Shown: positions 4,299-30,542 of the stretch, piece after piece
Numbering within the stretch: position 1 is the stretch's first letter
Layout: every line of letters starts with the position of its first letter
Assembly (NCBI GenBank): GCA_002694035.1
Contig: NZKY01000046.1
Span: 1 to 33,567, forward strand
DNA length: 33,567 nucleotides
Origin: Opitutia bacterium
GTDB taxonomy: Bacteria; Verrucomicrobiota; Verrucomicrobiia; Opitutales; Seribacteraceae
Reading direction: 5' to 3'
Program-made: the position numbers and the translations under genes
The notes under the pieces: model-generated
Database searches by the model: none
Told to the model about the DNA's origin: nothing
The model's input: only the letters and a program-made list of their open reading frames with translations

Positions 4299-5330
4299 TT
4301 AACGACCGTCCGTAAAAAGAGGTTGGGTCCAGGCATAGTATTCCCGCAGCGAACCATTATCCTTTTTAACTCGGTGAATCACTTTTGCCCGCAAATAGGC
4401 ACCATCAACTTCGCATGACCCAGAAAGTCCTTTTATCTTTTTTAAAACCTCTCCTCCTGGGCCAATAAATTCGATGTATGTACCAGGTTCTCCCTTTTTT
4501 ACTGGATGGCCGAATAGAAATTTGGATGCCAATTCCTTTTTAGTTTCTTTCTCATTTACAGAAAGTTCAATGCGATCTTTTGCACGAATCACCTGATCCA
4601 ACATCACTCCCGAAGAAGAATAAAAATCACCCCGAAGCATGGCCTTTGTTAAAGCATCCGAACTTAACTCATCTGAATTTACCATTACCCAACCCCGCCC
4701 CGGATTGTTTTCTTTTTCTCCCCATTTTTGTAATTTATGAGCGTCATCGGAAGAAACACCGTAAATAATCATTCCTTTTTCAAGCAGAGCATCCCATAAT
4801 ATCTCGAGGTTTGGACGATGTGCATTTCCAAAGCTATGCACCCCGGGGTGAGAATTATAGAGTTCAAACATGTAGAGCTTTTTAACCGGCAAGATTTCAT
4901 GAGAGTGCAAACGTCTGCCAAAGTTCGGATGATTAAGAATCATGGCACCATCTGCTTTTCCGATTTCGTCCACATGATTTTGAATGATCCTTGAACGATT
5001 TTGATCTTTAAAATGCCAAGGAACAAGGCGACTTATATTCATAGCAGTGCTGTGCACCGGACCCGTCACCTCTTCTCCGGGAACCAATAAAAAATCATCC
5101 CTTACTTCTCCTTTAAGGTTAACAGTGGATGGATCGATGAATTTATTATGCTCACTAAGAACAAGAAAATTATATCCACGGTCATGGTACCACTGGGCAA
5201 CAAAATCTGGAGTGGAATCAGCATGTCCACAAAGCGTGGTATGGACATGTGTGTTCCCCTTATACCATTTAGCAGCAAATCCATAGATGGGGGTAAAGAG
5301 GAGAAAGAAATGGAGAGCAAATTTATTCAT
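4299..5330 (-). CDS. Secreted CehA/McbA-like PHP-domain metallohydrolase
   Basis: Predicted metal-dependent hydrolase of the PHP superfamily (CehA/McbA branch), 343 residues, exported. The ATG at 5330 is chosen over a TTG at 5354 because it starts a signal peptide (MNKFALHFFLLFTPIYGFAA). Metal-ligand-like motifs follow: THVHT (His28, His30), CGHAD (His36, Asp38), LSEHN (Glu60, His61), LNHPNFG, and SSDDAH later in the chain. PHP enzymes act on phosphoesters or, in the CehA/McbA branch, on carbamate esters; the natural substrate here cannot be told from the sequence. It lies between the helicase and a small membrane gene, all on the minus strand with gaps of about 90-100 bases, so it is probably transcribed separately. 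Confidence 0.8.
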   Translation of the reverse strand: MNKFALHFFLLFTPIYGFAAKWYKGNTHVHTTLCGHADSTPDFVAQWYHDRGYNFLVLSEHNKFIDPSTVNLKGEVRDDFLLVPGEEVTGPVHSTAMNISRLVPWHFKDQNRSRIIQNHVDEIGKADGAMILNHPNFGRRLHSHEILPVKKLYMFELYNSHPGVHSFGNAHRPNLEILWDALLEKGMIIYGVSSDDAHKLQKWGEKENNPGRGWVMVNSDELSSDALTKAMLRGDFYSSSGVMLDQVIRAKDRIELSVNEKETKKELASKFLFGHPVKKGEPGTYIEFIGPGGEVLKKIKGLSGSCEVDGAYLRAKVIHRVKKDNGSLREYYAWTQPLFTDGR

Positions 5331-5431
5331 AAATTTATGAGATTTAAGCTTCAAAGGTTAGTTAAATTTAGCAAACAATAAAAATCGAAAGCTTAAAAAT
5401 AAACTGATTTTTAAATCCAATAATAATATTT

Positions 5432-5671
5432 TTATTTCTTTTTAACCTTTCGAACAAAAGCAAAAAGCAAAAATCCTAAAGCTAAAAAAATTGTTCCGGC
5501 AGGCCATGCAAACCACCCAAACCCAAGAGAAAGACCACCGACAAAAAATAAGACCCAAATAAGCAAAATTCCGATCAAAAAAAGGACTGGTTTAAATACA
5601 GAAGGATCCTTTCTTTCTTCCTTTCCAGAATCTTCATTTTTAAATTCTCCAAATCCTCCGGGGTGAAACAT
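5432..5671 (-). CDS. Small membrane protein with two hydrophobic segments
   Basis: Hypothetical protein of 79 residues. Residues 1-27 are polar and charged (MFHPGGFGEF start, then Asp/Glu/Lys-rich). Two hydrophobic segments follow, at about 28-49 and 51-72, joined by a Gly-Phe-Trp-rich turn (GFGWFAWPAG), and the protein ends in a basic tail (RKVKKK), which by the positive-inside rule suggests both ends in the cytosol. I do not recognise a family. The ATG has no clear ribosome binding site, as for many genes here. The 96-base divergent gap to the propeller-azurin gene may hold promoters for both. Confidence 0.6.
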   Translation of the reverse strand: MFHPGGFGEFKNEDSGKEERKDPSVFKPVLFLIGILLIWVLFFVGGLSLGFGWFAWPAGTIFLALGFLLFAFVRKVKKK

Positions 5672-5767
5672 TTGTATATTTTAAATCATTCTAATAATAT
5701 ATTCAAATTTCAGATTTAATTGAGAAGTTTACCTTGCGAAAATAAGTACCTGACGCAGTATAAAAAA

Positions 5768-8512: not shown

Positions 8513-8519
8513 TTCATAA

Positions 8520-9650
8520 TCAGTTCAATCTGGCACCCAAACCACCACCGTATCCCGCAAGTTCAAGGTAAGCTTTCCCGATAGGTACGCCCTCATTATT
8601 AAGCACTTCACAAGCACCTTCCCAGTAAGCATTATCTGATCGAGTACCGGTAAATTCCTGAGAATCAAGTAAGGGACGAATTCGATATACCCGTTTTCCA
8701 TAATCCGGATGAAATGCAGTGATCCGAACTGTGTTAGGATAGATCAATCCGGTTTTTGGACTTTTCCATTGATCTTCAGATTCCCATTTAAATTGATCAG
8801 CATAAACCTCTACCGTTTTTCCATTGGTGTCGATCCAATAGACTGCAGACCAAGGGTCGCTTCCACCATCTTTTGTCCGCAAGCGATATGCTTTTACCTC
8901 TGTACCGTCCTTCAACTGCATGCATGTCCAATCCCATCCTTCCAATCCATCCCCTAATTGACTTGATGAAATTTCGTGATCCATCCATGCAATTCCTTTA
9001 ACCGAAACTTCCTTGCCGTTTTGAAATAATTTTCCAGTTGCCTGTAATCTGGTATAGGACCAGTACCAACTAACTGCAGGGGGGCTTTCTCCTTTCCGAC
9101 TAAGGCCTCGATCCCCAAAAACTATTAATGGCTTTAGGGGAGAAAAAGTTAGCTCCAAACGATCACCATTTTGATAACGGGTAATAACCTGTTGCTGATT
9201 CTTTTCCGTAAGTAATTTAGCCTCTATTCCTCCGACACTTAAATCAAGGTTATCAAGCGATGCCTTTGCCTGCCATCCTTCACGATATACTCTTTCATGA
9301 TGAATATATTTTTTATTCCCGAGGTCGCTTAGAGCGGAATGCACTAGAAACAAATTTTGATTCCCAAAGGAACGGATTGAATTGTAAATTTTACCTTCGG
9401 GTGATCCTGCAATCCGAAAGACTGTGGATTGAAATCCAAAATTCCTTTTTTCATTAACAGATTTCAAATGACCAACCCAATACCACCATTCAATCCCGTA
9501 TTTCGGGTGTGAACCATGATCTCTGGGAAAGTTTGGTGTATAATCAGGACTTGGAACCAAGTAACCTTTCGGGGAACGATCAGGCGGTTGAATCCACTCA
9601 GCTGATAATATTTGAAAAATAAAAAAATAGTTAAAAAAAAGAAATCTCAT
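8520..9650 (-). CDS. AttH/CrtC-like secreted lipocalin-fold protein
   Basis: Exported protein of 376 residues in the AttH / carotenoid 1,2-hydratase-like family (COG5621, 'predicted secreted hydrolase'), a double lipocalin-like fold. A short hydrophobic signal peptide (MRFLFFNYFFIFQILSA) is followed by the family motifs EWWYWVGHL (54-62), GIAWMDHE and GWDWTCMQL. The family includes CrtC, but the genetic context argues against carotenoid synthesis: this gene is the last of an operon with an ABC ATPase and an FtsX-type permease, as in many proteobacteria. Its ATG overlaps the permease stop codon in an ATGA, indicating translational coupling. A role in handling a lipid or other hydrophobic ligand moved by the transporter is inferred; the biochemical function of this branch is not known. 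Confidence 0.82.
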   Translation of the reverse strand: MRFLFFNYFFIFQILSAEWIQPPDRSPKGYLVPSPDYTPNFPRDHGSHPKYGIEWWYWVGHLKSVNEKRNFGFQSTVFRIAGSPEGKIYNSIRSFGNQNLFLVHSALSDLGNKKYIHHERVYREGWQAKASLDNLDLSVGGIEAKLLTEKNQQQVITRYQNGDRLELTFSPLKPLIVFGDRGLSRKGESPPAVSWYWSYTRLQATGKLFQNGKEVSVKGIAWMDHEISSSQLGDGLEGWDWTCMQLKDGTEVKAYRLRTKDGGSDPWSAVYWIDTNGKTVEVYADQFKWESEDQWKSPKTGLIYPNTVRITAFHPDYGKRVYRIRPLLDSQEFTGTRSDNAYWEGACEVLNNEGVPIGKAYLELAGYGGGLGARLN

Positions 9651-12223
9651 TTTTGTTTACGAATCCACAAAGCGGCAGAAAGTACACCGGATAAAAAGCC
9701 AATCGCAAAAAGCAATAGACCGAAAATTACAAAATCTGTCCAAGGTAAGTGCCATTGTAATGTCCAGCCAAAGCTCTGCACATTGATCACATTGATTAAC
9801 AACCAGCCAAGAGCTACTCCAACAAGTGACCCACTTATCCACGCTCCCATTCCAATGGCAGCACCTTCAAGTCCGGCAGTTAATAAAAACTGTTTTCTAG
9901 AAAAACCGAGATAATCAAGAGTAAACCAAGTACGGGATGATTCGTCAAAAATAGCAAACAGTCCAAGCAACAAGCCAGCAAATGCGACCATTAAACCAAT
10001 TCCATTAAGTGCTGAAGTTGCTTTAAATGTCTGTTCGAAAATTCCTAAAGCCACATCCCTCAATTCTGAAGCATTTCTTACATCAAGTCCAGGATATGAA
10101 AGACGTAGTTGATCTCTTATTTCATTCACATTTGACCCTTTCCCAAGATAGAGACTAACATTGATTGGTCGCTCGGACTGGGTCCATTCTTTCCAAATTG
10201 GAATATCCACAGCAGCGGTTCCAAATTCATTTCCATAATCTGAAAAAATTCCAATGGGAGAAATTTTCTTTTTTCCAGTCATCGTATCAAGTTCAATAAA
10301 GCCACCATCAATCAAGTCAAAACGGCGGGCAAAAGTTTCACTAATTAAAGCCGGTTCACATCCTTCCACAGGTTTTAAGGACCCAGGCTTTTTTAACCAA
10401 AGCTGTCGAATCTGCGTACTCCATGCTTTCATATCCACACCGGATAGAATAGTAATACCTTCTGGCGGCTTGGCATATGAAATATATACAATATCGGCAT
10501 ATGAAACCATATTTTCATGGACCAATTTATCCATAACCAAAGGGTCGATTCCGTTTATGGTTCCTGCACCCGTTACACCTCGCTCAGAGACATAAAGGTC
10601 AGCCTGAAAACGAACATCGAACCATTCTTCAATTGTAATTCTAAAACTATCCACCATCTGAAACATGCCAGTCACCATACCCACAGCTACTACTAGACCG
10701 GCAACCGAAAGCCGGTGCCTGCTCGATCCGTCCTGTAATCTGCTAAATACCAAACGGGTGATCGGACCTGCACAGTACGGTTTAATTAAACCAGCTAGCC
10801 TAACGAGTACATGACCGGAGAGTAAAGCGGCTCCCAAGATCCAACACCCTGAAGCTAAAAAACCACCGATTGCCATTTTCCCACCACCTGCAAGGGGAAA
10901 AGGAGGGAAGACCAAAAATATTAAGCCAGACAAAATAAGGACAATACCTACGCGACTTTTACGCAACCAGGAGAAACCGGGAGACCAATCACCCCGTGAA
11001 AGAATTTGGGCAGGTGGAGTTTGCATTGCATCACGGGCCGGTAACCAACCAGCTAAAAGCGTAAATAAAAAGCCCAGACAAAGACCAAAAAGACAATCCT
11101 GCAAAGTGAGAGAAATTGCTTCAATTGTAGTTGCAAAATAAAGAGCATTTACGGTATCAGCCAACATTTGCGCTGAAAGAAAAGCAAAGAACCACCCCAC
11201 TCCTATTCCCAATATTGATCCGAGTACTCCTATTACCGCGGACTCAAACAAGAAAGTTATAAACAGAACACCCCTGTTTACTCCGAGAGATATTAAAGTT
11301 GCCACTTCGGCACGACGCCTAACCACTGCAGCATCAAGGGCCTGAAGAATTAAATAAGCACCGACTAAAATAGCGATGAGTGAAAGGATTGTCAGATTTA
11401 GACGAAAAGCCGCTGTCATCGAAGCACGATCAGCAGCCCGGTTTTGAGTAGCTTTTAATGTCAGATTTTTGGGCAGGTTTTTTGATATTCTATCTTTTAT
11501 TCCCTGTAAAAAATTGAGATTTTCACGCATTTCGATTTGATCAACTATAACCTCAATCCGATTCAATTCACCCTTCCGACTGAGTAGATTCTGAACAGTA
11601 GGCAAATCGCCAATAACCAAATCATCTGGAAAAGAGACCGAACTGGCATCAATAAATTTCCTCACCACCATTTCCCGCACACGACCACTGGCAAAGAAGC
11701 TAATTTCATCCCCTTCTTCAATTCCAAGTTTCCTTCCCGCTTCACTTCCAATCCAGACAAAATTTTCGCTTCCCAGCCATTCGTACCAGTTGGGTTCCTC
11801 CTTACCAAAATCAAATTTTGACTCCATTAAACTTGGAAGATTAGCGAGGCTTAAAAGATCAAGCCCTACTAATCTTAGCTGTTGATCCGGGGAACCATTG
11901 CTATCCAATGAAGTAACGGAACCTTCGATTACCGGAAGAAGATGCCAATCTGGCTCCTTGGATATTTGGGCAAGATCTTGAAGAATATTTGAATTTAATC
12001 TTTGGGTTGAAGATTCAATCAAAAAATCGCTTTGGCCAGAAACTGCCTGATTAAAAAGTCCAAAATTTGCGGATGCCGACCTACTTGCCTGTCTAATCCC
12101 ATTAAACGCACCCACACCCACAGCAACTATGCCAACGAGTAAAAAATAACTTCCTAAATTTTTCCTCCAATGCCTGAAGGTAGTTCGAAAAAGGAGCAAA
12201 ATTGCCAGCCGAAAGGAGAGCAT
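9647..12223 (-). CDS. Large ABC transporter permease of the FtsX/MacB type
   Basis: Inner membrane ABC permease of 858 residues with the doubled architecture of the YbbP-like group: an N-terminal membrane helix (about 25-45), a periplasmic MacB-like domain (about 45-265), three helices of an FtsX domain (about 270-400), two central helices (about 425-475), a second periplasmic domain (about 520-740) and a final FtsX domain (about 745-850) ending in RKQK. It works with the ATPase encoded 16 bases upstream; transporters of this type usually move lipids, lipoproteins or peptides by a mechanical mechanism rather than by a channel. The downstream AttH-like gene overlaps its stop by 4 bases. It carries one copy of a 19-base repeat also found upstream of the operon. 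The substrate cannot be read from the sequence. Confidence 0.9.
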   Translation of the reverse strand: MLSFRLAILLLFRTTFRHWRKNLGSYFLLVGIVAVGVGAFNGIRQASRSASANFGLFNQAVSGQSDFLIESSTQRLNSNILQDLAQISKEPDWHLLPVIEGSVTSLDSNGSPDQQLRLVGLDLLSLANLPSLMESKFDFGKEEPNWYEWLGSENFVWIGSEAGRKLGIEEGDEISFFASGRVREMVVRKFIDASSVSFPDDLVIGDLPTVQNLLSRKGELNRIEVIVDQIEMRENLNFLQGIKDRISKNLPKNLTLKATQNRAADRASMTAAFRLNLTILSLIAILVGAYLILQALDAAVVRRRAEVATLISLGVNRGVLFITFLFESAVIGVLGSILGIGVGWFFAFLSAQMLADTVNALYFATTIEAISLTLQDCLFGLCLGFLFTLLAGWLPARDAMQTPPAQILSRGDWSPGFSWLRKSRVGIVLILSGLIFLVFPPFPLAGGGKMAIGGFLASGCWILGAALLSGHVLVRLAGLIKPYCAGPITRLVFSRLQDGSSRHRLSVAGLVVAVGMVTGMFQMVDSFRITIEEWFDVRFQADLYVSERGVTGAGTINGIDPLVMDKLVHENMVSYADIVYISYAKPPEGITILSGVDMKAWSTQIRQLWLKKPGSLKPVEGCEPALISETFARRFDLIDGGFIELDTMTGKKKISPIGIFSDYGNEFGTAAVDIPIWKEWTQSERPINVSLYLGKGSNVNEIRDQLRLSYPGLDVRNASELRDVALGIFEQTFKATSALNGIGLMVAFAGLLLGLFAIFDESSRTWFTLDYLGFSRKQFLLTAGLEGAAIGMGAWISGSLVGVALGWLLINVINVQSFGWTLQWHLPWTDFVIFGLLLFAIGFLSGVLSAALWIRKQK
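12048..12066. repeat. 19-base direct repeat, copy 1 (within permease gene)
   Basis: The sequence tgattaaaaagtccaaaat occurs here inside the permease coding region (codons for part of FGLFNQ on the minus strand) and again, identical and in the same orientation, at 12943-12961. Confidence 0.7.
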
Positions 12224-12239
12224 AAAAAATAGTATTATT

Positions 12240-12923
12240 TTAAACCAAGCACCCGTCCTGTATCGAAATCACCCGATTACAAATTCGGGTTGAAGTACGG
12301 TCATGAGTAACCATGAGAAGAGCGACTCCTTGCTCAATAGATAATTCTTCAAGCAGAGAAAGAACATCATCACCACTTTTTGAATCCAAACTACCCGTTG
12401 GTTCATCAGCAAGAACAAGGTGTGGATTATGGATCAAGGCACGGGCAATGGCTACTCTTTGCCTTTCACCTCCACTTAATTCATCAGGTTTATGCTGGGA
12501 GCGACTGGAAAGTCCGACAAGTTTTAAAATTTTACGAACCTTTTCAATTCTTTCGTCCTTAGGCATATCGATTAATTGAGCAGGTAATTCAATATTCTCG
12601 AAAGCAGTTAGTGTAGGCAGTAGATGAAAAGACTGAAAAATATAACCTATTGATTCCCTTCTCAATGCTTCAACTCCAGAACGGTTAAGCTCGCGAATGG
12701 ATGAGTTGTTTAAAAAAATATCTCCTGAATCCAAATTCTCAACACCAGAAATACAATTAAGAAGGGTTGATTTCCCACTTCCACTTGGCCCCATTAGTGC
12801 AATCCGTTCACCCTTTTTAATGATTAAATTAACCCCCTTTAGAACTCCAAGCTGACCAAATGATTTACATGCCGACGAAATTTCGAGAACATGCTCAGGG
12901 TGGTTTTCTTTTAAGGATGCCAT
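12240..12923 (-). CDS. ABC transporter ATP-binding protein (LolD/YbbA type)
   Basis: Cytosolic ATPase subunit of 227 residues that powers the adjacent FtsX-type permease. Visible motifs: Walker A GPSGSGKS (45-52), Q-loop Gln97 (YIFQSFHLLP), signature LSGGERQRVAIARAL (149 onward), Walker B with LVLADEP (Asp173, Glu174), D-loop SLD and H-loop His in VTHD. The length and the FQSFHLLPTLTAFENIELP stretch are typical of the LolD/MacB/YbbA group. It is the first gene of a three-gene operon (ATPase, permease, AttH-like lipocalin). The 68-base gap upstream separates it from the alpha/beta hydrolase gene on the same strand and should contain its promoter. Confidence 0.93.
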   Translation of the reverse strand: MASLKENHPEHVLEISSACKSFGQLGVLKGVNLIIKKGERIALMGPSGSGKSTLLNCISGVENLDSGDIFLNNSSIRELNRSGVEALRRESIGYIFQSFHLLPTLTAFENIELPAQLIDMPKDERIEKVRKILKLVGLSSRSQHKPDELSGGERQRVAIARALIHNPHLVLADEPTGSLDSKSGDDVLSLLEELSIEQGVALLMVTHDRTSTRICNRVISIQDGCLV

Positions 12924-16853: not shown

Positions 16854-17321
16854 ATGACTGAAGAAAATAAAGATTTAGCTGGAAGATTCCCAAGATTTTG
16901 TGCTGCCATGATTGATGGTGTAATATTAATGGTTCTTTTATTCGCTATCGCAAAGATCACTGGGTTTTGGGAACAAATAATGCCAAGATTAGCACAAAAT
17001 ATTCCTTTAACGATGGAGGAAAGCATTATTGCTTTTGTTGTAGGGCAAGCTCTATTTCTGATTCTAAATGGAATGCTTTTAGCAAAACATGGTCAAACCA
17101 TTGGTAAAGCAATAATCGGAGTAAAAATAGTTGATACTCAACAAAATGCTGTTGGCTTTGCAAAATTATATTTACTGAGGTATTTAACAATTGTTTTTAT
17201 CTCCATGATACCAGTAGTCGGGTCCTTGTTAAATTTGCTAAATATATTATTTATTTTTGGTAAAGAAAGAAGATGCTTGCATGATCGAATTGCTGGAACA
17301 ATCGTGATCGTAGCGAAATAA
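16854..17321 (+). CDS. RDD family membrane protein
   Basis: Inner membrane protein of 155 residues. The family signature is visible: Arg in RFPRF and Asp in AAMIDG of the first helix (about 11-35), and a late Asp in RRCLHDRIAGT after the last helices. Predicted helices lie at about 15-35, 52-75, 100-125 and 125-135. The middle GQTIGKAIIGVKIVD motif is typical of RDD proteins. The family's role is unclear; some members affect transport of ions or compatible solutes. It stands alone between the purT operon and the cytochrome operon, with its own 147-base upstream region shared with the divergent small gene. Confidence 0.88.
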   Translation: MTEENKDLAGRFPRFCAAMIDGVILMVLLFAIAKITGFWEQIMPRLAQNIPLTMEESIIAFVVGQALFLILNGMLLAKHGQTIGKAIIGVKIVDTQQNAVGFAKLYLLRYLTIVFISMIPVVGSLLNLLNILFIFGKERRCLHDRIAGTIVIVAK

Positions 17322-17434: not shown

Positions 17435-18556
17435 GTGAAAAATAATTGTGTTATCAAATTCTCTGGTGTTCTGTTAGCTTTTTTTGTGTATGGTAATGCT
17501 GAAGTTCAGGCCAATGTTGAACAAAGCTTAAAGGTTTCAGACTATGCGGAGAAGGGTTATCTGACTTTTGATAACAAACCGCTGGGAAGTTTAAACCGGC
17601 CTCTCGTATTACGCACTTTTGTTCCAACTCTAGAACTTTCAAAAGAATCTGTTCTTTCTAATCATTCCTCGGGGTCAACTTCTCCAAAATATAGTCCGAG
17701 TAGTGGAAAAGAATCGGACAATAAGAACTATCAACCCATTGATGGAATCCCGGCTGCAATCGCAGTAAATCTTGGAAAAACACTATCCTATGTTTGGGAC
17801 ACTACTGAATGTCGTCTTCTTTACGCATGGACAGATGGCTTTCTTGATATGCTAAATTATTGGGGAGATCGGGCTAGTGGAAGAAGAAAAGGGTTTGGAT
17901 ATGTTCCAAGATTGTATGGTTTTGTTTTTTACAAGGCAGTTGGAAAACACCCACTCAAAATAGATGGGGTTTCAGTCTCAGAACTTGGAACGCCTAAGTA
18001 CAATGGATATTCGATCGGAGAAGATCGATTACCCGTGTATGATTATAGAATTGGAAAACATAATTTATCCCTAAAAATTAATTCCGGCCCTTCTGCCCAG
18101 ACTTTAAAGTTAGACTTCTCATCTAAAGATAATGAAAAACTTGAGTTTTCATCACCTAATACACAGGTCGAAATAAAAAATAAAAACTCAGGAAAACTCA
18201 GTATAATTATTCGTCCGAATGCCGGCGAACGGTTCTCTACAGATGAACCGAAAGAAGTCATCAAAAAACCTTCACGCGAAATTGGAGAAAGACTTTACAC
18301 ATCTTTAGGATGTATTGCCTGCCATTCTTTGGATGGTGGGAAAAACCACGGACCTACTCTAAAAGGTTCCTATGGTTCCAAGAGAGAATTTTTAAAAGCA
18401 TCTCCTATGGTTATAGACGAAGCGTACATAAGAGAATCAATCGAAAAACCCATGGCTAAGACTGTCAAGGGATACCTTACTGGAATGATGCCCCCCTATA
18501 AACTCCAAGAAGCTGAGTATAATTCATTGATATTATTTATTAAATCAGTCCGTTAA
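17435..18556 (+). CDS. Exported DUF6797-like protein with C-terminal cytochrome c domain
   Basis: Exported protein of 373 residues, GTG start, signal peptide (KNNCVIKFSGVLLAFFVYG, cleavage probably after VQA near residue 27). The N-terminal module (about 30-265) shares landmarks with the module of the protein at 5768-8512: LSYVWDTTE, YAWTDGF and DYRIG (203-207). The C-terminal class I cytochrome c has the heme site CIACH (Cys293, Cys296, His297) and a Met axial ligand in GMMPP (Met351 or Met352). It should act as an electron acceptor or relay in the periplasm. The next gene, a propeller-PmoA protein, starts 18 bases downstream, so the two are almost surely co-transcribed and probably act together. 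Confidence 0.87.
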   Translation: MKNNCVIKFSGVLLAFFVYGNAEVQANVEQSLKVSDYAEKGYLTFDNKPLGSLNRPLVLRTFVPTLELSKESVLSNHSSGSTSPKYSPSSGKESDNKNYQPIDGIPAAIAVNLGKTLSYVWDTTECRLLYAWTDGFLDMLNYWGDRASGRRKGFGYVPRLYGFVFYKAVGKHPLKIDGVSVSELGTPKYNGYSIGEDRLPVYDYRIGKHNLSLKINSGPSAQTLKLDFSSKDNEKLEFSSPNTQVEIKNKNSGKLSIIIRPNAGERFSTDEPKEVIKKPSREIGERLYTSLGCIACHSLDGGKNHGPTLKGSYGSKREFLKASPMVIDEAYIRESIEKPMAKTVKGYLTGMMPPYKLQEAEYNSLILFIKSVR

Positions 18557-18574
18557 AGTTTTTTATAATCTACC

Positions 18575-21007
18575 ATGAAGTTTTTTATTTTAGTTATTCT
18601 TTCCCTCGCATCATCATTAAGTGCATCTGTTTCGAGTTATCCTATTGAAAACATTAATTTCCCTGATGACATGCCCCCCGAAATTGGTGGCTTGGCCTTT
18701 GATCAAAATGGTAACCTTTATGCCTGTTTACGCCGGGGAGATGTTGTGATTACAAAACCCGGTAATAATCCAAACTTAACCCAATGGAAAGTGTTTGCCA
18801 CCGGTTTACATAACCCGATGGGGATGCTCTTGGTTGGACCAGGTCATATCATTGTCTCACAAATGGCAGAGTTGACTGAGATCATTGATACCGATATGGA
18901 CGGGATCGCGGATCGATACAATAACTTATCAACTGATTTCGGAATCAGCGGGAATTATCATGAAACGAATGCGATTTGTAGGGATGGGAATGGAGGATTC
19001 TATATTGCCCTTGGTACTGCATCACATAATGGACCCACTTTTTTTTCTCCTCGTGGAGAATATTCAAAGGATGGAAGAAGGGGGCGTAATTTTTCGTCCA
19101 ATCAACTACGCGGATGGGTCGTTCACTACGATAAAAATGGAAAGCTTTCTCCATTTGCGAGCGGATTCCGTATGCATAACGGAATAACCAGATCTCCTGA
19201 TGGAGAAATTTGGTGTGGTGACAACCAAGGAGACTGGCGGGGTGGTTCTCCAATATACAATGTTCGCCCTGGCTCTTTTAATGGTCATCCATCCAGTCTT
19301 GTATGGGATAATGATCTTAAAAACTTTGGAACTCCAATTTTCCTACCCCGTAAGATGCTTGATGATCTTCATAATCAGCCATCGGTCCAGTTAACTAGAA
19401 AAAGTATGAATTCTTGCGGAGAACCTTTTATTATTCAAAGTAAAAACTTTGGTCCTTTTAATGGTCAGATGTTAGTACCCGACGAAAACGGTCGAAGAAT
19501 AAACAGAATAATGATGGAAAAAGTTGACGGTGCTTGGCAAGGTGCTTCAGCTCTTTTCCTCAACACAAAACAATTGAGAGCAGGCGGTGTCAGAATAGCC
19601 ATGGATGATACAGGTAAAACGATTTACTACGGGTCTACAACCCGCGGATGGCAAAGCCCGGATGAAGGTCTTCAAAGGATTACTTATAATGGAAAAATAC
19701 CATTCCATGTGCAAAATCTAAAATTAACGACAAAAGGTTTTAAACTTTGGTTCACTAAACCAATTAAAAAGAAAAGTTTTGATTCCAAAAAAATTAAAAT
19801 TCGAAGCTTTCGATACGAATATGGATATCGTTATGGTTCCAGTGAAAAAGATAAAAAAGAACATCAGATAGTAGCGGTTAATGGGACAGGACCATTTGAA
19901 ATTATAATTGATGAACTGGTTGCTGGAAGGATCTACATGATCGAAATAAACCCTGAACTAACATCGGAAGACAATCAAAAGATACATGACCCATTCGTTC
20001 AATACACTGTTAACCGGCTTAAAAGACCTGAAACTAAATTTCCTGCAAAATTAAATCTTCAGGAAGATGGGATAGAAGTCTCGGTGGGTGGAGAATTTTT
20101 CGCTAAATATAATTTTTCAAAATTTTCACAGCCCATCATCTGGCCCGTTCAGGGACCGGGCAATATACGTATGCTTAGGGATTACCCTTTAAAGAATGGG
20201 ACGGAAGGAGAGGCTAATGATCACCCTCATCACCGAGCAATTTTTATAGGGCATCAGGGGGTAAGCGGCGTAAATTACTGGCATAATCAGAATAAAAATG
20301 CAGGCGTCGTTGAACACCTTAAGCTAATTGAAAGCAGATCTGGCGAAGACCGTGCCATTATCAAAACGCTCAATGCCTGGAAGGATAATGAAGGAAAAAC
20401 CATAGGTGCTGACACTCGTACAATTTCTTTTGGTGGAGATGCTGCTGCCCGCTTCATTGATTTGGAAATTAATATCCACGCGACTAATCAAGATTTAGTT
20501 TTTGAAGAATTTAAAGACGGGTTTGTGGGAATTAGAACACACCCTGACTTACGCCTTAATCCAAATCCCAAGCACGGTGTAAAGGAAGTATTTGGCAAAG
20601 CAAGAAACAGTGAGGGAATTGAAGGAAAAAGTATTTGGGGAAAACGGGCGGACTGGGTTCATTATCATGGAAAAATTGAAGGTAAAGACGCTGGAATCGG
20701 CTTTTTTAGCCATCCTTCAAATATAACCAAAAAAGGAGAAAAGTCTTGGTGGCATGCAAGGGATTATGGTCTTATCTCAGCCAACCCTTTTGCCCCAGTC
20801 AAAATTGGTGGTGATGGAGAGCACAAAATTGAGAAAGGACAAACCCTTACTTTACGCTATCGGTTCATCTTTCATAAGGGTCCAGCAAAAGATGCTAAAA
20901 TTGGTCAAATGTTTACAGAATACGCAAAAGATGATGGTCATCCAACTTCCTTGATGCCTGATCATCCCGGTTATCCCGAAGATTATCTTTCCCAAAAAAA
21001 GAAATAA
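18575..21007 (+). CDS. Secreted beta-propeller protein fused to a DUF6807 (PmoA-like) domain
   Basis: Exported protein of 810 residues with signal peptide MKFFILVILSLASSLSA. Domains: a PQQ-dehydrogenase-like propeller (about 25-385; FATGLHNPMG, DTDMDGIADRY as a calcium-loop-like stretch), a tail with YEYGYRYGS (414 onward), and a DUF6807/PmoA domain (about 490-800) with the histidine cluster DHPHHRAIFIGH (549-560). The propeller and tail are the same type as in the 5768-8512 protein. PmoA/DUF6807 domains were named from methane monooxygenase annotation but have no proven link to methane oxidation. Flanked by the cytochrome c gene (18-base gap) and the epimerase gene (19-base gap), it is the centre of a three-gene operon, probably sugar-related. 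Confidence 0.85.
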   Translation: MKFFILVILSLASSLSASVSSYPIENINFPDDMPPEIGGLAFDQNGNLYACLRRGDVVITKPGNNPNLTQWKVFATGLHNPMGMLLVGPGHIIVSQMAELTEIIDTDMDGIADRYNNLSTDFGISGNYHETNAICRDGNGGFYIALGTASHNGPTFFSPRGEYSKDGRRGRNFSSNQLRGWVVHYDKNGKLSPFASGFRMHNGITRSPDGEIWCGDNQGDWRGGSPIYNVRPGSFNGHPSSLVWDNDLKNFGTPIFLPRKMLDDLHNQPSVQLTRKSMNSCGEPFIIQSKNFGPFNGQMLVPDENGRRINRIMMEKVDGAWQGASALFLNTKQLRAGGVRIAMDDTGKTIYYGSTTRGWQSPDEGLQRITYNGKIPFHVQNLKLTTKGFKLWFTKPIKKKSFDSKKIKIRSFRYEYGYRYGSSEKDKKEHQIVAVNGTGPFEIIIDELVAGRIYMIEINPELTSEDNQKIHDPFVQYTVNRLKRPETKFPAKLNLQEDGIEVSVGGEFFAKYNFSKFSQPIIWPVQGPGNIRMLRDYPLKNGTEGEANDHPHHRAIFIGHQGVSGVNYWHNQNKNAGVVEHLKLIESRSGEDRAIIKTLNAWKDNEGKTIGADTRTISFGGDAAARFIDLEINIHATNQDLVFEEFKDGFVGIRTHPDLRLNPNPKHGVKEVFGKARNSEGIEGKSIWGKRADWVHYHGKIEGKDAGIGFFSHPSNITKKGEKSWWHARDYGLISANPFAPVKIGGDGEHKIEKGQTLTLRYRFIFHKGPAKDAKIGQMFTEYAKDDGHPTSLMPDHPGYPEDYLSQKKK

Positions 21008-21026
21008 GATATAGATTTTCAACTTT

Positions 21027-21842
21027 ATGAAATTTGCACTTTGCAACGAAGTTTTTCAGGACTTTTCAATTGAGGAAGGATTTTCTAAAATCGCTGAAAT
21101 TGGATACAAGGGAGTAGAAATTGCCCCATTCACTCTAAAAGAAGACCCTCTGGAGATAAATGAGGAAGATGCAATTCGTTGTGCAAACGCAGCAAAATCT
21201 GCCGGTTTAGAAATTGTCGGCTTGCACTGGCTAATGGCTAAGACAGAAGGTTTACATCTTACACATTCCGATCAAAGTATGCGCTTAGCAGCATCTAATT
21301 ACTTAAAAAAACTTACCGAACTTACCGCTCAAATGGGGGGAGACATTATGGTTCTTGGAAGTCCCCACCAACGTAACCTTGAACATGGAACCGTATATGA
21401 AGACGCATTTGCAAGGGCAGTCGAAATCATTCGCGAAGTCTGCCAACTTGCTGGTAAACTTGGTGTCACTCTTGCGGTGGAACCACTATCACCTGTGGAG
21501 ACCAGTTTTTTATCATCCTGTGCGGAGGCACGCCGTTTTATTACTGCCGTCAACATGCCTTCCTGTCGATTGCATTTGGATATGAAAGCAATGGCTCATG
21601 AACCTGCTGGAACTATTGCCACTATTTATGATCATCGTTGGGAAGTTGCTCACTTTCACGGGAACGATGTTAACCACAGGGGACCGGGACAGGGTCCAAC
21701 AAATTTAGATGAAGTGGCTAAAGCATTAAGGGAAATTGACTATCAGGGTTGGGTATCGGTTGAACCATTCGACTACCACCCTACCCCAGAGGAATGTGCC
21801 CGTATAAGTCTGAAAAATCTAAAAACTAGTTTTACTTTTTAA
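21027..21842 (+). CDS. Sugar phosphate isomerase/epimerase-family TIM-barrel protein
   Basis: Cytosolic TIM-barrel protein of 271 residues, of the xylose isomerase-like / D-tagatose or D-psicose 3-epimerase group. Likely metal ligands: Glu152 (VEPLSP), Asp185 (LHLDMKAM), His211 (AHFHGND) and Glu246 (VSVEPFDY). This set of two Glu, one Asp and one His is the usual one. It probably interconverts ketoses, keto-sugars or related polyols. As last gene of the cytochrome/propeller-PmoA operon, it could process the product of the periplasmic proteins after uptake. Only 3 bases separate its end from the convergent SHD1 gene. The exact substrate is unknown. Confidence 0.88.
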   Translation: MKFALCNEVFQDFSIEEGFSKIAEIGYKGVEIAPFTLKEDPLEINEEDAIRCANAAKSAGLEIVGLHWLMAKTEGLHLTHSDQSMRLAASNYLKKLTELTAQMGGDIMVLGSPHQRNLEHGTVYEDAFARAVEIIREVCQLAGKLGVTLAVEPLSPVETSFLSSCAEARRFITAVNMPSCRLHLDMKAMAHEPAGTIATIYDHRWEVAHFHGNDVNHRGPGQGPTNLDEVAKALREIDYQGWVSVEPFDYHPTPEECARISLKNLKTSFTF

Positions 21843-21845
21843 AAT

Positions 21846-23624
21846 CTAATTTTTGGAAATAGATACTTTTAATGCCCTACTTCTGGGAACCTCCGTTTTT
21901 TTCTCCTTTGAATAGTATGCTAAACTAATTCCCTGAAATGGAAAAACAGAGGCATAACCCTTCCCATACTCAAGGTTCATGTCCTTTGTGTTGTTGGGTG
22001 AAATATTAAATTTAAACTGATAGTATGGAGTTCCCATCGCCTCAACTCCTTTAAGGGAAGATAAAGCACCCCTTGGCAATTTTAGATCAACCCACTTCTT
22101 TTCGAAAGGAAGTTTTATTCTTTTTCCTTCCGTCGGAGTCATGTAAAAAGCACCATCTCCGATTTGCGGTTTTATCTTGCTCATGGGAAGATTCTTCACA
22201 TTGGGAATAATACCATGCATACTAACCCCGACTCTTGTGGATGTTGGCCATTTTTCACCTGCAGGATCTTTGATTCTTGACCAGAATTGCATACTGTTAC
22301 GATTTATTTCCATGTTGTATTCAAATGTTCCTCCATTCTCATACTTACCAGTGAGTGTAATTTTATCGCGATCAAGAGAGGGTTCGGGAGATGAATCAAA
22401 ACTTGTTATTTTTCTACTCCTTTTTCTAGTCCGCTTTGGATTAGTTCTGTCAGTAAAAATTGAACTGAAACCTATTGTCATTCTTCTCAAACCTACCGGA
22501 TTAGCCTTGGCAGATTCTGGCAGTTTATCAGCACCTGGATTAATCCATACATGTAAACCACTTCCACTGGACGGTAAAGCAATGGTATAGGAATCACCTT
22601 CAAAAATTGTGTTATAATCCTTATATTTCCCAGTCCCGTAGTGGGACAAGCGATTTCCTTTGGCAGGTATAATTTTAGGCTTCATGGAAGCCATTGAACT
22701 TTTCTTCCTTCTTAATGCTTCCAATTTTGCAATAGATGAAGAATCAAATTTACTCCATGGCAGGGAAAGTGGATTGGATTTCGATTTTAATAGAACAGAA
22801 ACCTCTAGATCATTTGCATCAACAAATTTTGCCATAATTGTTCTACCTTCAATATCTTTTAATTCGTGTTCAATCTCGAGATCCTGCTCGGAGATTAATG
22901 GCACTTTCATTGCTTTTCTCTTTTTGGCTAATGCTGCCGCTTTTTTTTCAAGAGCAGAAAGATTGGACTTCAATTTTTTTGCTAATGCTTGTGAATCTTT
23001 GGACAAAGAATTTAAAGGTACTGAAACTTCTCTGGCACCACCACCGATAGACAAAACAATATTTTGATCATTTAAATCTAAGAATCTTCCAACAATTGTT
23101 TGATTTTGGGAATTTTGCCAGGGATACTCTTTTTGCAAATCGAGTTCCCCATTCAAATCCACCTTTTGAACTGGCTGTTTAATTACCGGGATAGGTGATT
23201 TTTGTTTTTGCAAACGGAAAGCCATTTCCTGAGATTCCTGGCTAAACATAGAAAGAGGTAAAACGGTTGTCTTTCCATTCCAAATCAAAGTTACGGTTTT
23301 ATTATCCGACTTTACAAACTCGGCAGATATTGTCCTACCTGACTGATCCTTCCATTCTCTTACTTTTTTATTGTTTTTAACATTAATTGAATCGGGCTTT
23401 ACCCTCAATTTATTAACCAAAGATTTTGTTATAGAATTTAAGGTGCTTATGGGTAATGGAAAACGTTTCCCATTCCATTCGATTGTTACAGTAGTACTAT
23501 CAGCTTTAATAAATTTGGCTTGTAATGTTCTACCATTTAAATCTGTCCAAGAATGTAATTCATTGGAATCTTCTGCATTTAAAAAATGCATCAAAAAAAA
23601 TACAATTAAGAAAATAAATTTCAT
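21846..23624 (-). CDS. Secreted protein with four SHD1-type repeats
   Basis: Exported protein of 592 residues with signal peptide MKFIFLIVFFLMHFLNA. Four SHD1 (SLA1 homology domain 1)-like repeats are visible at about 23-73, 88-138, 167-218 and 252-306, each built as 'W-x-D-x-x-GRT-(hydrophobic)-x-A-x-F-(x)n-V-x-(hydrophobic)-x-W-x-G-K-x-x-x-(hydrophobic)-P-(hydrophobic)'. Repeats 3 and 4 are more diverged (QNQTIVGRF; EGRTIMAKF). A lysine-rich linker (about 222-242) sits between repeats 3 and 4. Residues about 325-592 form a beta-rich region without a family I recognise. SHD1 repeats are common in exported proteins of Planctomycetes and Verrucomicrobia; their function there is unknown. A 219-base AT-rich region upstream holds nothing I can name. 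Confidence 0.8.
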   Translation of the reverse strand: MKFIFLIVFFLMHFLNAEDSNELHSWTDLNGRTLQAKFIKADSTTVTIEWNGKRFPLPISTLNSITKSLVNKLRVKPDSINVKNNKKVREWKDQSGRTISAEFVKSDNKTVTLIWNGKTTVLPLSMFSQESQEMAFRLQKQKSPIPVIKQPVQKVDLNGELDLQKEYPWQNSQNQTIVGRFLDLNDQNIVLSIGGGAREVSVPLNSLSKDSQALAKKLKSNLSALEKKAAALAKKRKAMKVPLISEQDLEIEHELKDIEGRTIMAKFVDANDLEVSVLLKSKSNPLSLPWSKFDSSSIAKLEALRRKKSSMASMKPKIIPAKGNRLSHYGTGKYKDYNTIFEGDSYTIALPSSGSGLHVWINPGADKLPESAKANPVGLRRMTIGFSSIFTDRTNPKRTRKRSRKITSFDSSPEPSLDRDKITLTGKYENGGTFEYNMEINRNSMQFWSRIKDPAGEKWPTSTRVGVSMHGIIPNVKNLPMSKIKPQIGDGAFYMTPTEGKRIKLPFEKKWVDLKLPRGALSSLKGVEAMGTPYYQFKFNISPNNTKDMNLEYGKGYASVFPFQGISLAYYSKEKKTEVPRSRALKVSISKN

Positions 23625-24150: not shown

Positions 24151-24383
24151 TTCGACTGTGCTTCTTTCGGAATCGCATCGAGATCGACATCTTCCAATAA
24201 ACTTGAATTCGTTTCAAATCGCTCGGTTACAGATTGAATTCTTAAGTGTCGTCTTATACCAAGAGCCAAAATTATGAGGAGTAAAAAAAATAAGAAACCA
24301 AGTTTTTCCAGAGAAAAACTTTTATTATCTATCGAAAACTGGAGGCTTCCAATTTTCGGGCAATTTACCCTGTGGGCGGACAC
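24147..24383 (-). CDS. Small single-pass membrane protein, start uncertain
   Basis: Open frame on the minus strand that ends at 24147 and overlaps the sulfatase 3' end. The part beyond the sulfatase stop (at 24325) reads as a membrane segment (LGFLFFLLLIILALGI), then basic RRHLR and an acidic tail ending DLDAIPKEAQSK, which looks like a real protein. Its stop overlaps the DUF983 ATG as ATGA, which supports translation. The start is not clear: no ATG lies in the right place. A GTG at 24383 would give 78 residues and overlap the sulfatase by 59 bases; a rarer start closer to the membrane segment is possible. No family recognised. Confidence 0.45.
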   Translation of the reverse strand: MSAHRVNCPKIGSLQFSIDNKSFSLEKLGFLFFLLLIILALGIRRHLRIQSVTERFETNSSLLEDVDLDAIPKEAQSK

Positions 24384-26508
24384 CTCTTGCTCCTTTTGGG
24401 ATGATACTGTCTGCCCTGGTAAGAAGAGATAAGTTATCGGGCAAATGCTTGATTCGCATTTCCTTAAACTCAACGGTCATCGGGGGACCTTTGTGAACCT
24501 GCATAGCCAATACTCCCTCCATTTTTCTGCCCGATTCATGCAAATCAATTAAATCAGCGGTAGGATGACCATTGATCCAGTGACGGTGTCTATTTCCTTC
24601 AACTAAAATTCGGAACTCATGCCACTCTCCAGATTTAAATTCCTTCACCGGAAAATTACCGATAATCCATGGCTGACCGGTGTTATCAACAATTACCTTC
24701 TCTCCTGTATGGGATAGAATTCGCCTACCCCTTTCTTCATATAACATTCCGTTATATTTTGTTTGATTGGCAACCACATCACATTGGTATCCTGTTACAA
24801 TATCGAGCCCAATATCTGCCCGGGATTTCCCCCGATATTGAATACCACTATTCCCTCCATTGCTTATCCGCACTTTTACCCTGAGGTCAAAATTTCGAAC
24901 TGTAGCTCCTTTCCAAGTAATAAATCGATTCATCTTTAATGTACCGTCCGTTTTGCCTATGAGTACTCCATCCTTCTTCGACCAAAACTTAGAATCGCCA
25001 GACCAATTACGTATTCGGTTACCTGCTGCGATAAGATTGGAAAATCCATCAGAACCAGGTTTATTAGCAACCTGTGCTGCTGACCTTGGATAAGGAACTG
25101 TAGAGAGTGAAAGATCTCCATTCATTGGGGAAAGTGGACCACCCAACTCCTTTACTTTTTTATCAGTGAGTGCACGCATATTTTTTAAGACATCATTATA
25201 ATTTGAATTTCCTGCCAAATTTTCTATTTCGTTAGGATCCTCGCTTAAATCGTGCAAAAATTCATAATTTCCTTCATCCACATAACGTACATATTTATAT
25301 CTTTCTCCACGCAAACCTTCAAAGGCAGGGATTCTTGAACGAACTGCAAAATGCTCATGAAAAGTGTGTTTTCGCCAAGAAAAAGGTTTGGTTTCAGAAA
25401 CTAGTTCATCAAAAGTCCTCCCTTGATATCGATCAGGAATTTGAACTCCCGCCCATGAGAGAAAGGTCGAAGGTAGATCAAGATTGAGAACTGGTTCTTT
25501 TCGAACCTGTCCCTTTGCTTTATTCTTTACTCTGGGATCAAATACAATCATGGGAACTCGTAAAGATTCTTCATAATGTGACCATTTACCCGCAAATCCT
25601 CGATTTCCCATATGGAATCCATTATCGGCTGTATAAACAATGATCGTATTTTCTGCCAAACCCTTTGCTTTCAAGGCACTAATAAATCGTCCTATTGCAT
25701 TATCTATTCCGCTAACCATTCGCAAATAAGCACGCATATTTATCCGATATCTTTCGTCTGTATTCCATCTCCAATAAAACCGCTCACGATTAATAGTGGT
25801 CTTGAGAAAATCGGGTTGTGAGTCAAAGATTTTAGGATCATTTAATTTGGGTGGAGCAATTTTGTCATCTTCGTACATTTCATCCATTGCTCGGGGCCAG
25901 GGAAAATGACCAATTCCAGGGCGTCGATCACCATCTTCCGCATGACAAGCATTAAACCACATATTAATGGCAAATGGTTTTCCGTCAGGCTGAGTATCCA
26001 AAAATTCAATCCCTCGATCAACTATCAATTCGGTTTCATGACGAAGGCTTCCATCCGGTTGTTTTTTATAAAATGGATTTCTTCCAATTGGATGGAATTC
26101 ATCAAAATGATCCTGTGCTTTCCATCCCTTAGGCATTTTAGCATGCCATTTTCCTGCAAAGCCTGTGCGGTATCCAGCATCCCTTAAATAATCTACATAA
26201 AGCTTTTCGACTGCCTCTGGTTTTGCCATATCATGATTGCCAGGCACACCATAACTTCTTCCTGTTAAACCTGTAAGAATCGTTGTTCGGCTAACCCAGC
26301 AGATTGACTGACTAACAAATGCATTTTCAAAACGAGTACCCTCTTTTGCCAATCGGTCAATGTTTGGAGTTTTGACCAATGGATGCCCATAACAGCCAAG
26401 AATACTGGAAGTTTGATCATCGGTAAAAAAGAATACGATATTTGGCTTTTTAGCCCAAATTGTGGCAGTACTAAATACCAAAGAAATGAGGAGGAATAAT
26501 AATTTCAT
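24325..26508 (-). CDS. Secreted sulfatase fused to a DUF1080 domain
   Basis: Exported arylsulfatase-family enzyme of 727 residues with signal peptide MKLLFLLISLVFSTATIWA. Active-site elements: Asp30 and Asp31 (FTDDQT), the formylglycine cysteine Cys70, Lys120 and His122 (GKWHAK), Asp295 and Asn296 (TADNGFHMG). The activation motif reads C-W-V-S-R (70-74), not the usual C-x-P/A-x-R; similar CxVSR forms occur in Planctomycetes/Verrucomicrobia sulfatases as far as I recall. Residues about 500-705 form a DUF1080 (3-keto-disaccharide hydrolase, LamG-like) domain with GNSGIQYRG and GYQCDVV. The combination suggests action on sulfated polysaccharides outside the inner membrane. A remnant of a second sulfatase lies 59 bases upstream. 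Confidence 0.92.
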   Translation of the reverse strand: MKLLFLLISLVFSTATIWAKKPNIVFFFTDDQTSSILGCYGHPLVKTPNIDRLAKEGTRFENAFVSQSICWVSRTTILTGLTGRSYGVPGNHDMAKPEAVEKLYVDYLRDAGYRTGFAGKWHAKMPKGWKAQDHFDEFHPIGRNPFYKKQPDGSLRHETELIVDRGIEFLDTQPDGKPFAINMWFNACHAEDGDRRPGIGHFPWPRAMDEMYEDDKIAPPKLNDPKIFDSQPDFLKTTINRERFYWRWNTDERYRINMRAYLRMVSGIDNAIGRFISALKAKGLAENTIIVYTADNGFHMGNRGFAGKWSHYEESLRVPMIVFDPRVKNKAKGQVRKEPVLNLDLPSTFLSWAGVQIPDRYQGRTFDELVSETKPFSWRKHTFHEHFAVRSRIPAFEGLRGERYKYVRYVDEGNYEFLHDLSEDPNEIENLAGNSNYNDVLKNMRALTDKKVKELGGPLSPMNGDLSLSTVPYPRSAAQVANKPGSDGFSNLIAAGNRIRNWSGDSKFWSKKDGVLIGKTDGTLKMNRFITWKGATVRNFDLRVKVRISNGGNSGIQYRGKSRADIGLDIVTGYQCDVVANQTKYNGMLYEERGRRILSHTGEKVIVDNTGQPWIIGNFPVKEFKSGEWHEFRILVEGNRHRHWINGHPTADLIDLHESGRKMEGVLAMQVHKGPPMTVEFKEMRIKHLPDNLSLLTRADSIIPKGARGVRPQGKLPENWKPPVFDR

Positions 26509-28631: not shown

Positions 28632-30521
28632 ATGGACTTTTTTGAGCATCAATCACGAGCAAAATCAAAATCTGTAAAACTATATATTCTATTTGGTTTT
28701 GTAGTTTTACTTATCTCCTTCCTAGTTTTTTCTCTACTTTCTTGGTTTTTTGAAAGAAGCGATAGACTTGGAGACTTAGCTTGGTCTCCTTTTTTCTTAA
28801 TCTCCACTCTTTGGGTAGTTTGTTTTTTAATAATAGGTATTAGTTTATCAAAGATAAAAGAACTTTCAGGAGGCGGTTGGGTGGTTGCAAACGCACTGGG
28901 AGGAGAGCTCATTACATCAAGTTCGCAAAATCCGTTAAAAAGAAGAATTCTAAATATTGTTGAAGAAATGGCTATCGCATCTGGAGTTCAGGTCCCTCAT
29001 GTTTATCTATTGAAAGAAAACGGTATAAATGCCTTTGCAGCAGGGTATTCTACTGAAGATGCAGTAATTGGAGTGACAATTGGATGTCTAGAAAAATTAA
29101 ACCGCGAACAGTTACAGGGGGTAATAGCTCATGAATTCAGTCATATTTTAAACGGAGATATGCGTATTAATATTCGAATGACTGGAATAATCTTTGGGAT
29201 TGTTTTCATTGCACGAGCCGGACAAGCGATCATGGACTCACATGATGATCCTTTTTATCCAGAGGAAGAGGGTAAGTCTAGGTGGTATCTACTCGGTATT
29301 GGGTTATACATAATTGGAATTTTGGGAGCTTATCTTGGTGCCATTATTCGTTCATCAGTAAGCAGGCAAAGAGAATTTTTAGCTGATGCATCTGCAGTTC
29401 AATTTACTCGAAATGCTGAAGGTATCATGGGAGCACTCGAATGCATTGGTGGATATTCTAAAGGTTCGAGAATTTGGAATCCAAGATCCAGACAATTCTG
29501 CCATATGTTCTTTGGCCCCTGCATGAAAAACCTAATGGCAACCCACCCTCCCATCGAAAAAAGAATTAGAAGAATTATACCAAGCTGGAATACGGCTTTT
29601 CCAAACACAAATCAAATAAGCGAAGGTAAGATCTTTGAGAAAAATAACTTTAAAAGGACCTCATTTACCGGAAATCAATTCGAAAGAAGAAAACCTTCAA
29701 AGTTCGAGCATACATCTGTTGAAGGTGATAAGAGTAGAGCCTCTAGTCAAAAATCAATCATGCATGCACAGGATTTACTCAAAAAAATCCCAAGAGAGCT
29801 TACTGTTCAAACACATGATAGCTTTGGATCAAATTGTCTTCTTTTTGCAATGTTACTTGACCCTCATCACTCAATTCAAAAAAAACAAATATCCCTAATA
29901 AATCAGTGCACAGATTCAAAAATCTCTCAACATACTCAGAAAATTTTTCCTTATCTCACTTTAATTAGCTGTGAGGAGAAACTCGTACTTATTGAAATGG
30001 CCGCTTCTAAACTTTCGTTTTTATCTCCTGAGCAGGTAAAAAATTTTGAATCTGTCATCAATATGCTAATTAAAGAAGATAAAAAATTTCAACTTTTTGA
30101 ATGGAGCCTCTTAAAATTGGTTAATCATAAAATTAAACACATAAGAACCCCAAACAGACAAATTCACGGACGTAAACAGATTCTTTCCCGCCTTAATGAA
30201 TGTAACATAATTCTGAGCACCTTAGCTCATTATGGTAAGGATAATGAAGACCCAAATCTCGCTTTTAATATGGGGTTTAAACATTTAAACTCAAACAAAA
30301 AAAGAAAATTGATTTATAAAAAAGACTGCACATTTTCTAAACTTGATTTAGCCATCGACCGACTCAATGATTTAAATCTACGAGCCAAAAAAAAATTCCT
30401 TGAAGCATGTGAAATTACTGCCCTACACGATAAAAATATATGCGAAACTGAAACTCAAATCATCAGAACCGTAGCATCCTCCCTTGGTTACCCGCTATAC
30501 CTCCTTGCGAAAATGAACTAA
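28632..30521 (+). CDS. M48 (HtpX-like) membrane metalloprotease with C-terminal helical extension, copy 1
   Basis: Zinc protease of 629 residues. Two membrane helices (about 17-40 and 53-73) precede the catalytic domain, which carries HEFSH (His167, Glu168, His171) and the third ligand Glu248 in SRQREFLADASAV. Further hydrophobic segments lie at about 183-200 and 219-241. HtpX itself is only about 290 residues; here residues about 335-629 are an added region, with a low-complexity linker and a helical, TerB-like end (ACEITALHDKNICETETQIIR). It follows lemA and precedes a paralogue by 21 bases. Likely membrane protein quality control; the role of the extension is unknown. Confidence 0.9.
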   Translation: MDFFEHQSRAKSKSVKLYILFGFVVLLISFLVFSLLSWFFERSDRLGDLAWSPFFLISTLWVVCFLIIGISLSKIKELSGGGWVVANALGGELITSSSQNPLKRRILNIVEEMAIASGVQVPHVYLLKENGINAFAAGYSTEDAVIGVTIGCLEKLNREQLQGVIAHEFSHILNGDMRINIRMTGIIFGIVFIARAGQAIMDSHDDPFYPEEEGKSRWYLLGIGLYIIGILGAYLGAIIRSSVSRQREFLADASAVQFTRNAEGIMGALECIGGYSKGSRIWNPRSRQFCHMFFGPCMKNLMATHPPIEKRIRRIIPSWNTAFPNTNQISEGKIFEKNNFKRTSFTGNQFERRKPSKFEHTSVEGDKSRASSQKSIMHAQDLLKKIPRELTVQTHDSFGSNCLLFAMLLDPHHSIQKKQISLINQCTDSKISQHTQKIFPYLTLISCEEKLVLIEMAASKLSFLSPEQVKNFESVINMLIKEDKKFQLFEWSLLKLVNHKIKHIRTPNRQIHGRKQILSRLNECNIILSTLAHYGKDNEDPNLAFNMGFKHLNSNKKRKLIYKKDCTFSKLDLAIDRLNDLNLRAKKKFLEACEITALHDKNICETETQIIRTVASSLGYPLYLLAKMN

Positions 30522-30542
30522 ATTCAAAATTTAACATAGAAT

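Follow-up and report, generated by a model that had tools for sequence, protein, structure and literature searches.

Three closely spaced genes lie on the forward strand of the window, the 33,567-nucleotide stretch of DNA analysed here, which is part of contig C30 of a 2.88 Mb genome that is 93% complete and whose close relatives are marine Opitutales. The open reading frames are exactly where the initial annotation had placed them, at 17435-18556, 18575-21007 and 21027-21842, with intergenic gaps of 18 and 19 bases; they start with GTG, ATG and ATG and encode proteins of 373, 810 and 271 amino acids, respectively. The first is an exported cytochrome (CYTC), the second an exported propeller protein with a DUF6807 domain and the third a TIM-barrel protein (TIM); inspection of the sequences by eye found N-terminal signal peptides in the first two proteins and none in TIM. 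Neither gap contains a terminator-like site; across the region the frequency of these sites does not exceed chance, and the search of the region for internal promoters and terminators returned sites at or below the chance level. Upstream, the PurT, HIBDH and RDD genes are kept only in some close relatives, and the RDD gene (16854-17321) was for this reason excluded from the parts of the operon. Convergent to the operon, on the reverse strand at 21846-23624, is a conserved neighbour encoding an exported protein of 592 amino acids with SHD1-like repeats (SHD1x). It adjoins the unit in both genera of the family wherever the contig extends far enough and is the same-strand fourth gene in genus g2, and it is a probable accessory part of the system.

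CYTC consists of a signal peptide (residues 1-27, approximately), a 235-amino-acid all-beta domain that we call CYTN (approximately 36-272) and a C-terminal cytochrome c domain (PF00034, 32.4 bits in Pfam). CYTN carries an invariant WDTxECRL..YAW..GF motif; Foldseek gave no useful match and no PDB fold for it, the structural matches covering the cytochrome only. The cytochrome domain has the CxxCH signature, the distal methionine and the fold of a cytochrome c: the haem-binding motif C293-I-A-C-H297 (18311-18325) and Met352 (18488-18490), the probable axial ligand, are both invariant in an alignment of 38 homologues. It shares 47% identity with 1w2l, the cytochrome of a caa3 oxidase (Z 16.2), a resemblance that suggests respiration as the electron sink.

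The 810-amino-acid protein comprises a six-bladed propeller (approximately residues 20-390), a small beta domain that extends to about residue 490 and DUF6807 (residues 500-779); the propeller, N-terminal to DUF6807, is of the DUF7133 type. The DUF6807 domain (PF14100, 20072-20911) scores 183.6 bits against a Pfam gathering threshold of 27 and contains invariant DHPHH, RTHP and WWHARDYG motifs. PF14100 once carried the name PmoA in Pfam, and the "PmoA" of the initial annotation is this superseded name, which implies no methane monooxygenase; a methane-oxidation reading was rejected because there was no Pfam or NCBIfam match to a membrane subunit of particulate methane monooxygenase. A fold search with the model of the whole protein lists beta-galactosidase entries that were not assigned to a domain. 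DUF6807, DUF7133 and DUF6797 are widespread in Verrucomicrobiota and Planctomycetota. In the open literature we found DUF6807 mentioned once, in passing, DUF6797, DUF7133 and TIGR02604 not named, and no functional paper.

The AlphaFold model of the propeller (mean pLDDT 88.4) has the six-bladed sugar-dehydrogenase form expected of a GSDH. Its top matches in the PDB are PQQ sugar dehydrogenases, led by 3a9g (Z 28.6, rmsd 2.9, 297 residues aligned) and followed by 2ism (Z 28.2), 3das (27.5), E. coli Asd (26.0), AA12 (23.9) and sGDH (23.4), with lactonase-type propellers at Z about 22.5. A shared propeller fold alone is no proof of activity. His129 (18959-18961) aligns with the catalytic-base histidine of GSDH and sGDH, and Arg199 (19169-19171) with their PQQ-contacting arginine; each is invariant in 29 of 29 propellers. 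The best candidate for the general base in sGDH is His144, assisted by Arg228 (PMC6881810, PMC6881789). When the propeller profile is aligned with one of GSDH proteins of the same order (E 3e-5), His129 and Arg199 fall opposite GSDH His169 and Arg236, positions that are themselves invariant among GSDH sequences. The Asn or Asp that comes directly after the GSDH arginine is not in place in the window protein, which has Met200 there and Asn202 two residues further on. PF07995 is not listed for the window propeller at E 0.1 and matches 8 of the 29 members of the propeller family, the best at 1e-7; an uninformative PDB profile search with the propellers retrieved little besides designed ones, picked up by a single short motif. 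The best reading of the predicted structure is that the window propeller is a periplasmic sugar dehydrogenase of a divergent GSDH type.

The search for PQQ synthesis genes covered the window's genome and 56 relatives. PqqC was not found in these 57 genomes, in a search that had no positive control, and no PqqE scored over the cut-off in any of them; the genes for PQQ synthesis are likely to be absent. If the propeller does use PQQ, it would have to be scavenged, or its place taken by something else, since the synthesis genes were not found. E. coli scavenges PQQ for its Asd.

TIM (21027-21842) is a TIM barrel of the AP_endonuc_2 or ketose-epimerase type (132.7 bits against Pfam AP_endonuc_2); the window genome has 12 AP_endonuc_2 genes over the cut-off. 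Its putative metal ligands, Glu152, Asp185, His211 and Glu246, are invariant, align with those of D-tagatose 3-epimerase and make up the Glu-Asp-His-Glu set that ketose 3-epimerases carry on their TIM barrels. The best-scoring models are IolO and the 3-epimerases; at 107.8 bits against an equivalog cut-off of 300, TIM falls outside the IolO 5-keto-L-gluconate epimerases, so its substrate cannot be transferred by name. A further match is to the 3-keto-D-glucoside 4-epimerase 6wn6 (1.6e-9). Taken with the metal ligands, these matches indicate that TIM is likely to act on a keto-sugar, and the sugar epimerase named in the initial annotation stands as one of the keto-sugar type.

The order CYTC-propeller-TIM was found in all 14 informative core Opitutales loci and in two truncated loci, and is shared by the genus of the window and a second genus of the family; in these two genera identities to the window proteins are 58-85% for TIM, 59-80% for the propeller-DUF6807 protein and 55-75% for CYTC. 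Given its recurrence across loci, the three-gene arrangement exceeds chance. In 41 of 41 loci that have sufficient sequence, a count that spans Opitutales, Akkermansiaceae and relatives, the propeller gene is immediately preceded by CYTC in the same orientation. Of 21 loci with a fused propeller-DUF6807 gene, 14 have TIM directly 3' of it, including every testable core Opitutales locus; TIM does not follow the more distant fused versions (L066-L069, L071 and L073 have no TIM neighbour; L071 belongs to the cultured Roseibacillus persicicus KCTC 12988). The conserved core is therefore CYTC plus the propeller, with the epimerase added in some lineages; the three-gene unit originally proposed holds for core Opitutales, but the unit that is conserved more widely has two genes. 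No homologues of the gene set were found outside Verrucomicrobiota; neighbourhood conservation, proposed in the initial annotation as a check across Verrucomicrobia and Planctomycetes, was found in the former and not in the latter, which yielded lone DUF6807 only.

The unit also occurs in rearranged and fused forms. The Akkermansiaceae propeller as a rule lacks DUF6807, and in a subgroup of that family (L081, L082, L084, L087, L088 and L096) a different TIM subfamily is encoded just upstream of CYTC. By tree and BLAST, the window TIM has a nearer relative in a paralogue of the same genome (27%, 84 bits) than in the Akkermansiaceae TIMs, so two TIM subfamilies appear, with moderate support, to have joined the same CYTC-propeller pair. 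In two genomes TIM, CYTN and cytochrome c form a single polypeptide with a signal peptide (622 amino acids in L180 and 631 in L225); the two fusions are 39% identical and come from different genera, and in both cases no more than 12 bases separate the fusion from a propeller gene downstream. In NCBIfam, the best model for the fused TIM of L180 (90 bits) is also the best for the window TIM. We found no precedent for a fusion of a cytochrome with an epimerase. Of all the observations, this fusion argues most strongly for joint function of the parts; it supports the view that TIM, CYTC and the propeller form one working system and, through its signal peptide, it shows that TIM can be exported. 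A further locus with these parts (L227; G375:C1:293000-309000, positions 4912-11127), in a nearly complete genome of four contigs, is broken: CYTN runs into a 735-amino-acid open reading frame, the cytochrome is in a separate frame and the propeller is split, suggesting that the locus was hit by insertion or decay.

The electron carrier also varies. Distant pairs keep CYTN and the propeller: in L172 and L173 an azurin-type domain replaces the cytochrome, and in L168, which belongs to the window's own genome, the cytochrome has moved to the N-terminus. This second CYTN-cytochrome and propeller pair (5009-10305; G000:C25) has sulfatases and a SASA esterase as neighbours, and a TIM-barrel gene is located about 3 kb from it. 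In the window itself, a protein of 930 amino acids (5720-8512, forward strand) joins DUF6797 to a propeller of the same family (E 7e-32) and a C-terminal azurin-like domain; judged by its domains, it resembles the redox module of the operon condensed into one chain, with copper in the carrier. Across these pairs and the 930-amino-acid protein, what stays constant is the beta domain, the propeller and some form of electron carrier.

Gene content around related units agrees with sugar or sugar-acid catabolism, without naming a substrate. An XylR-type sugar regulator is encoded upstream in L066, a Gfo/Idh/MocA dehydrogenase lies between the propeller and TIM in L060, and clusters with a mannonate oxidoreductase-like SDR and an Ldh_2 dehydrogenase are found beside related pairs in L172 and L238, the former also having a KDG-kinase-like PfkB and a 2-hydroxyacid dehydrogenase. 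On the window's contig, about 15-20 kb downstream of the operon, a similar cluster (L170, 7064-11086) has SDR, Ldh_2, sugar kinase-like and 2-hydroxyacid dehydrogenase genes. Elsewhere in the window, a CrtC-like lipocalin gene adjoins an FtsX-type permease gene and that of its ABC ATPase (8520-12923), possibly as one transport operon, and two tandem M48/HtpX-like peptidase genes (28632-32468; 629 and 641 amino acids, with long C-terminal extensions) sit behind LemA and DUF1189 genes.

We infer from these data that a sugar is oxidised with CYTC as the acceptor and that the product is converted by TIM. This reading draws on the order of the genes and its conservation, on their recurrent and fused association, and on predicted folds in which the relevant residues are conserved. 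On the evidence of fold and residues, the propeller would take a hydride from a sugar or glycoside with His129 as the base, and the cofactor, either PQQ taken up from outside or another one, would be activated by Arg199. The invariant gene pairing suggests that CYTC, as the dedicated cytochrome, would then accept the electrons at its haem and relay them to a terminal oxidase. DUF6807 might bind the oxidised sugar or process it further and, to judge by its family and metal ligands, TIM would epimerise or isomerise the keto-sugar product as a metalloenzyme of the ketose 3-epimerase type, in the cytosol in the window genome and in the periplasm where it is fused to CYTC. We give about an even chance to the operon being a periplasmic sugar-oxidising system with its own cytochrome that delivers a keto-sugar product to the epimerase. 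The failure to find PQQ genes, the lack of a PF07995 match, Met200 and the fused loci that have no TIM all count against it, as does the chemistry of the known GSDH enzymes, which oxidise C1 to a lactone: oxidation of that type would provide no keto-sugar for the epimerase. Somewhat less probable is a Verrucomicrobiota-specific periplasmic glycan-oxidising complex, in which dehydrogenases of a new family, whose cofactor may be unusual, would reduce a dedicated cytochrome or cupredoxin while a tethered TIM converts the keto-sugar in the periplasm.

The initial annotation is thus supported in part. Its proposal of sugar oxidation gains from the resemblance of the propeller to sugar dehydrogenases and the constancy of its cytochrome partner. 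The division between periplasmic oxidation and cytosolic conversion fits the window genome, but two relatives export an epimerase-cytochrome fusion. Neither cleavage of a glycosidic bond nor a sulfated polysaccharide substrate received direct support. The suggestion that the set is undescribed agrees with our finding no description of it in the open literature.

Cleavage is central to the alternative that survives best, which we nevertheless regard as unlikely: that the propeller and CYTC oxidise C3 of a bound glycoside and that TIM or DUF6807 then cleaves the glycosidic linkage, through beta-elimination or hydration, in the manner of the 3-keto pathways of Agrobacterium and Bacteroides. The eliminase and the probable hydratase of Agrobacterium are TIM-barrel proteins that had been annotated as sugar isomerases (PMC10628242), and the match of TIM to 6wn6 also favours this route. 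So do the commonest neighbours of lone DUF6807 genes, which are 3-keto-disaccharide hydrolase, Gfo/Idh/MocA and sulfatase genes, although the counts are small and these families are common in the phylum. A 3-keto-disaccharide hydrolase domain (PF06439, DUF1080) is present in the window at the C-terminus of a sulfatase (24325-26508), and a 72% identical copy of that fusion is found near the operon in L059; the window's fusion is encoded on the strand opposite to the operon, however, and the operon itself has no such hydrolase. The metal sites differ too: the O-glycoside beta-eliminase AtOGE has the metal set His132/Asp163/His189 and the catalytic base His134 (PMC10628242), whereas TIM has Glu152 in place of His132 on strand 5 and no histidine two residues on, so that the eliminase residues are absent.

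It is less probable still that the propeller is a lactonase or a sugar-binding propeller and that CYTC serves another donor, the genes sharing only their regulation. Six-bladed lactonase and SMP30-type propellers do match strongly (Z about 22-23), and the failure to find PQQ genes would be expected, but sugar dehydrogenases score 3-6 Z units above lactonase-type propellers, the GSDH histidine and arginine are invariant and the constant partner of the propeller is a redox carrier, whether cytochrome or cupredoxin. Very improbable is an incidental TIM, retained by common descent in one family beside a CYTC-propeller pair that alone belongs together: TIM is missing beside some pairs and AP_endonuc_2 genes are common, but two TIM subfamilies lie on opposite sides of the pair, fusions occur in two genomes and, taking about 12 AP_endonuc_2 genes in a total of roughly 2500, we estimate chance adjacency at about 1% per locus.

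The sugar-oxidising reading provides a testable hypothesis for DUF6807, DUF7133 and DUF6797, namely periplasmic oxidative sugar processing coupled to respiration; in the TIM-cytochrome fusion, a sugar epimerase and an electron carrier are physically joined. If the hypothesis is true, marine glycan breakdown would include a redox branch overlooked by surveys of glycoside hydrolases.

The system can be compared with several that are known. Like GSDH, sGDH and Asd (PF07995), the window protein is exported, is predicted to contain a six-bladed propeller and shows no variation in the catalytic His and Arg across its family; unlike them, it is below Pfam detection, does not conserve the Asx after the Arg in place, is fused to DUF6807 and has a cytochrome partner in its operon, with PQQ genes not found. 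The TIGR02604 (PVC-type heme-binding CxxCH) and DUF7133/DUF6797 proteins share its propeller family and redox-domain logic, but the window operon splits the module over two genes and scores 26.1 bits against the TIGR02604 cut-off of 122. The pathways of 3-keto-glycoside elimination (Agrobacterium GlycDH/OGE/HYD/Gfo; lacABC with DUF1080) also place oxidation first, periplasmic and cytochrome-linked in the case of lacABC, and a TIM-barrel metalloenzyme second, but they use another class of dehydrogenase and differ from the window operon in DUF1080 and in the eliminase residues. IolO and the D-tagatose and D-psicose 3-epimerases, the best NCBIfam and PDB relatives of TIM, have the same barrel and Glu-Asp-His-Glu metal set. 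The fungal PQQ pyranose dehydrogenase CcPDH (AA12 + AA8) likewise has a haem domain as the electron carrier of its sugar-dehydrogenase propeller, but there the two form one polypeptide with a cytochrome b, whereas the window has a separate c-type cytochrome with a beta domain, plus an epimerase. A c-type partner encoded by a separate gene, the joining of DUF6807 to the propeller and the fusion of epimerase with cytochrome are undescribed in the searchable literature; the association of a sugar-dehydrogenase propeller with a haem partner is already known from CcPDH.
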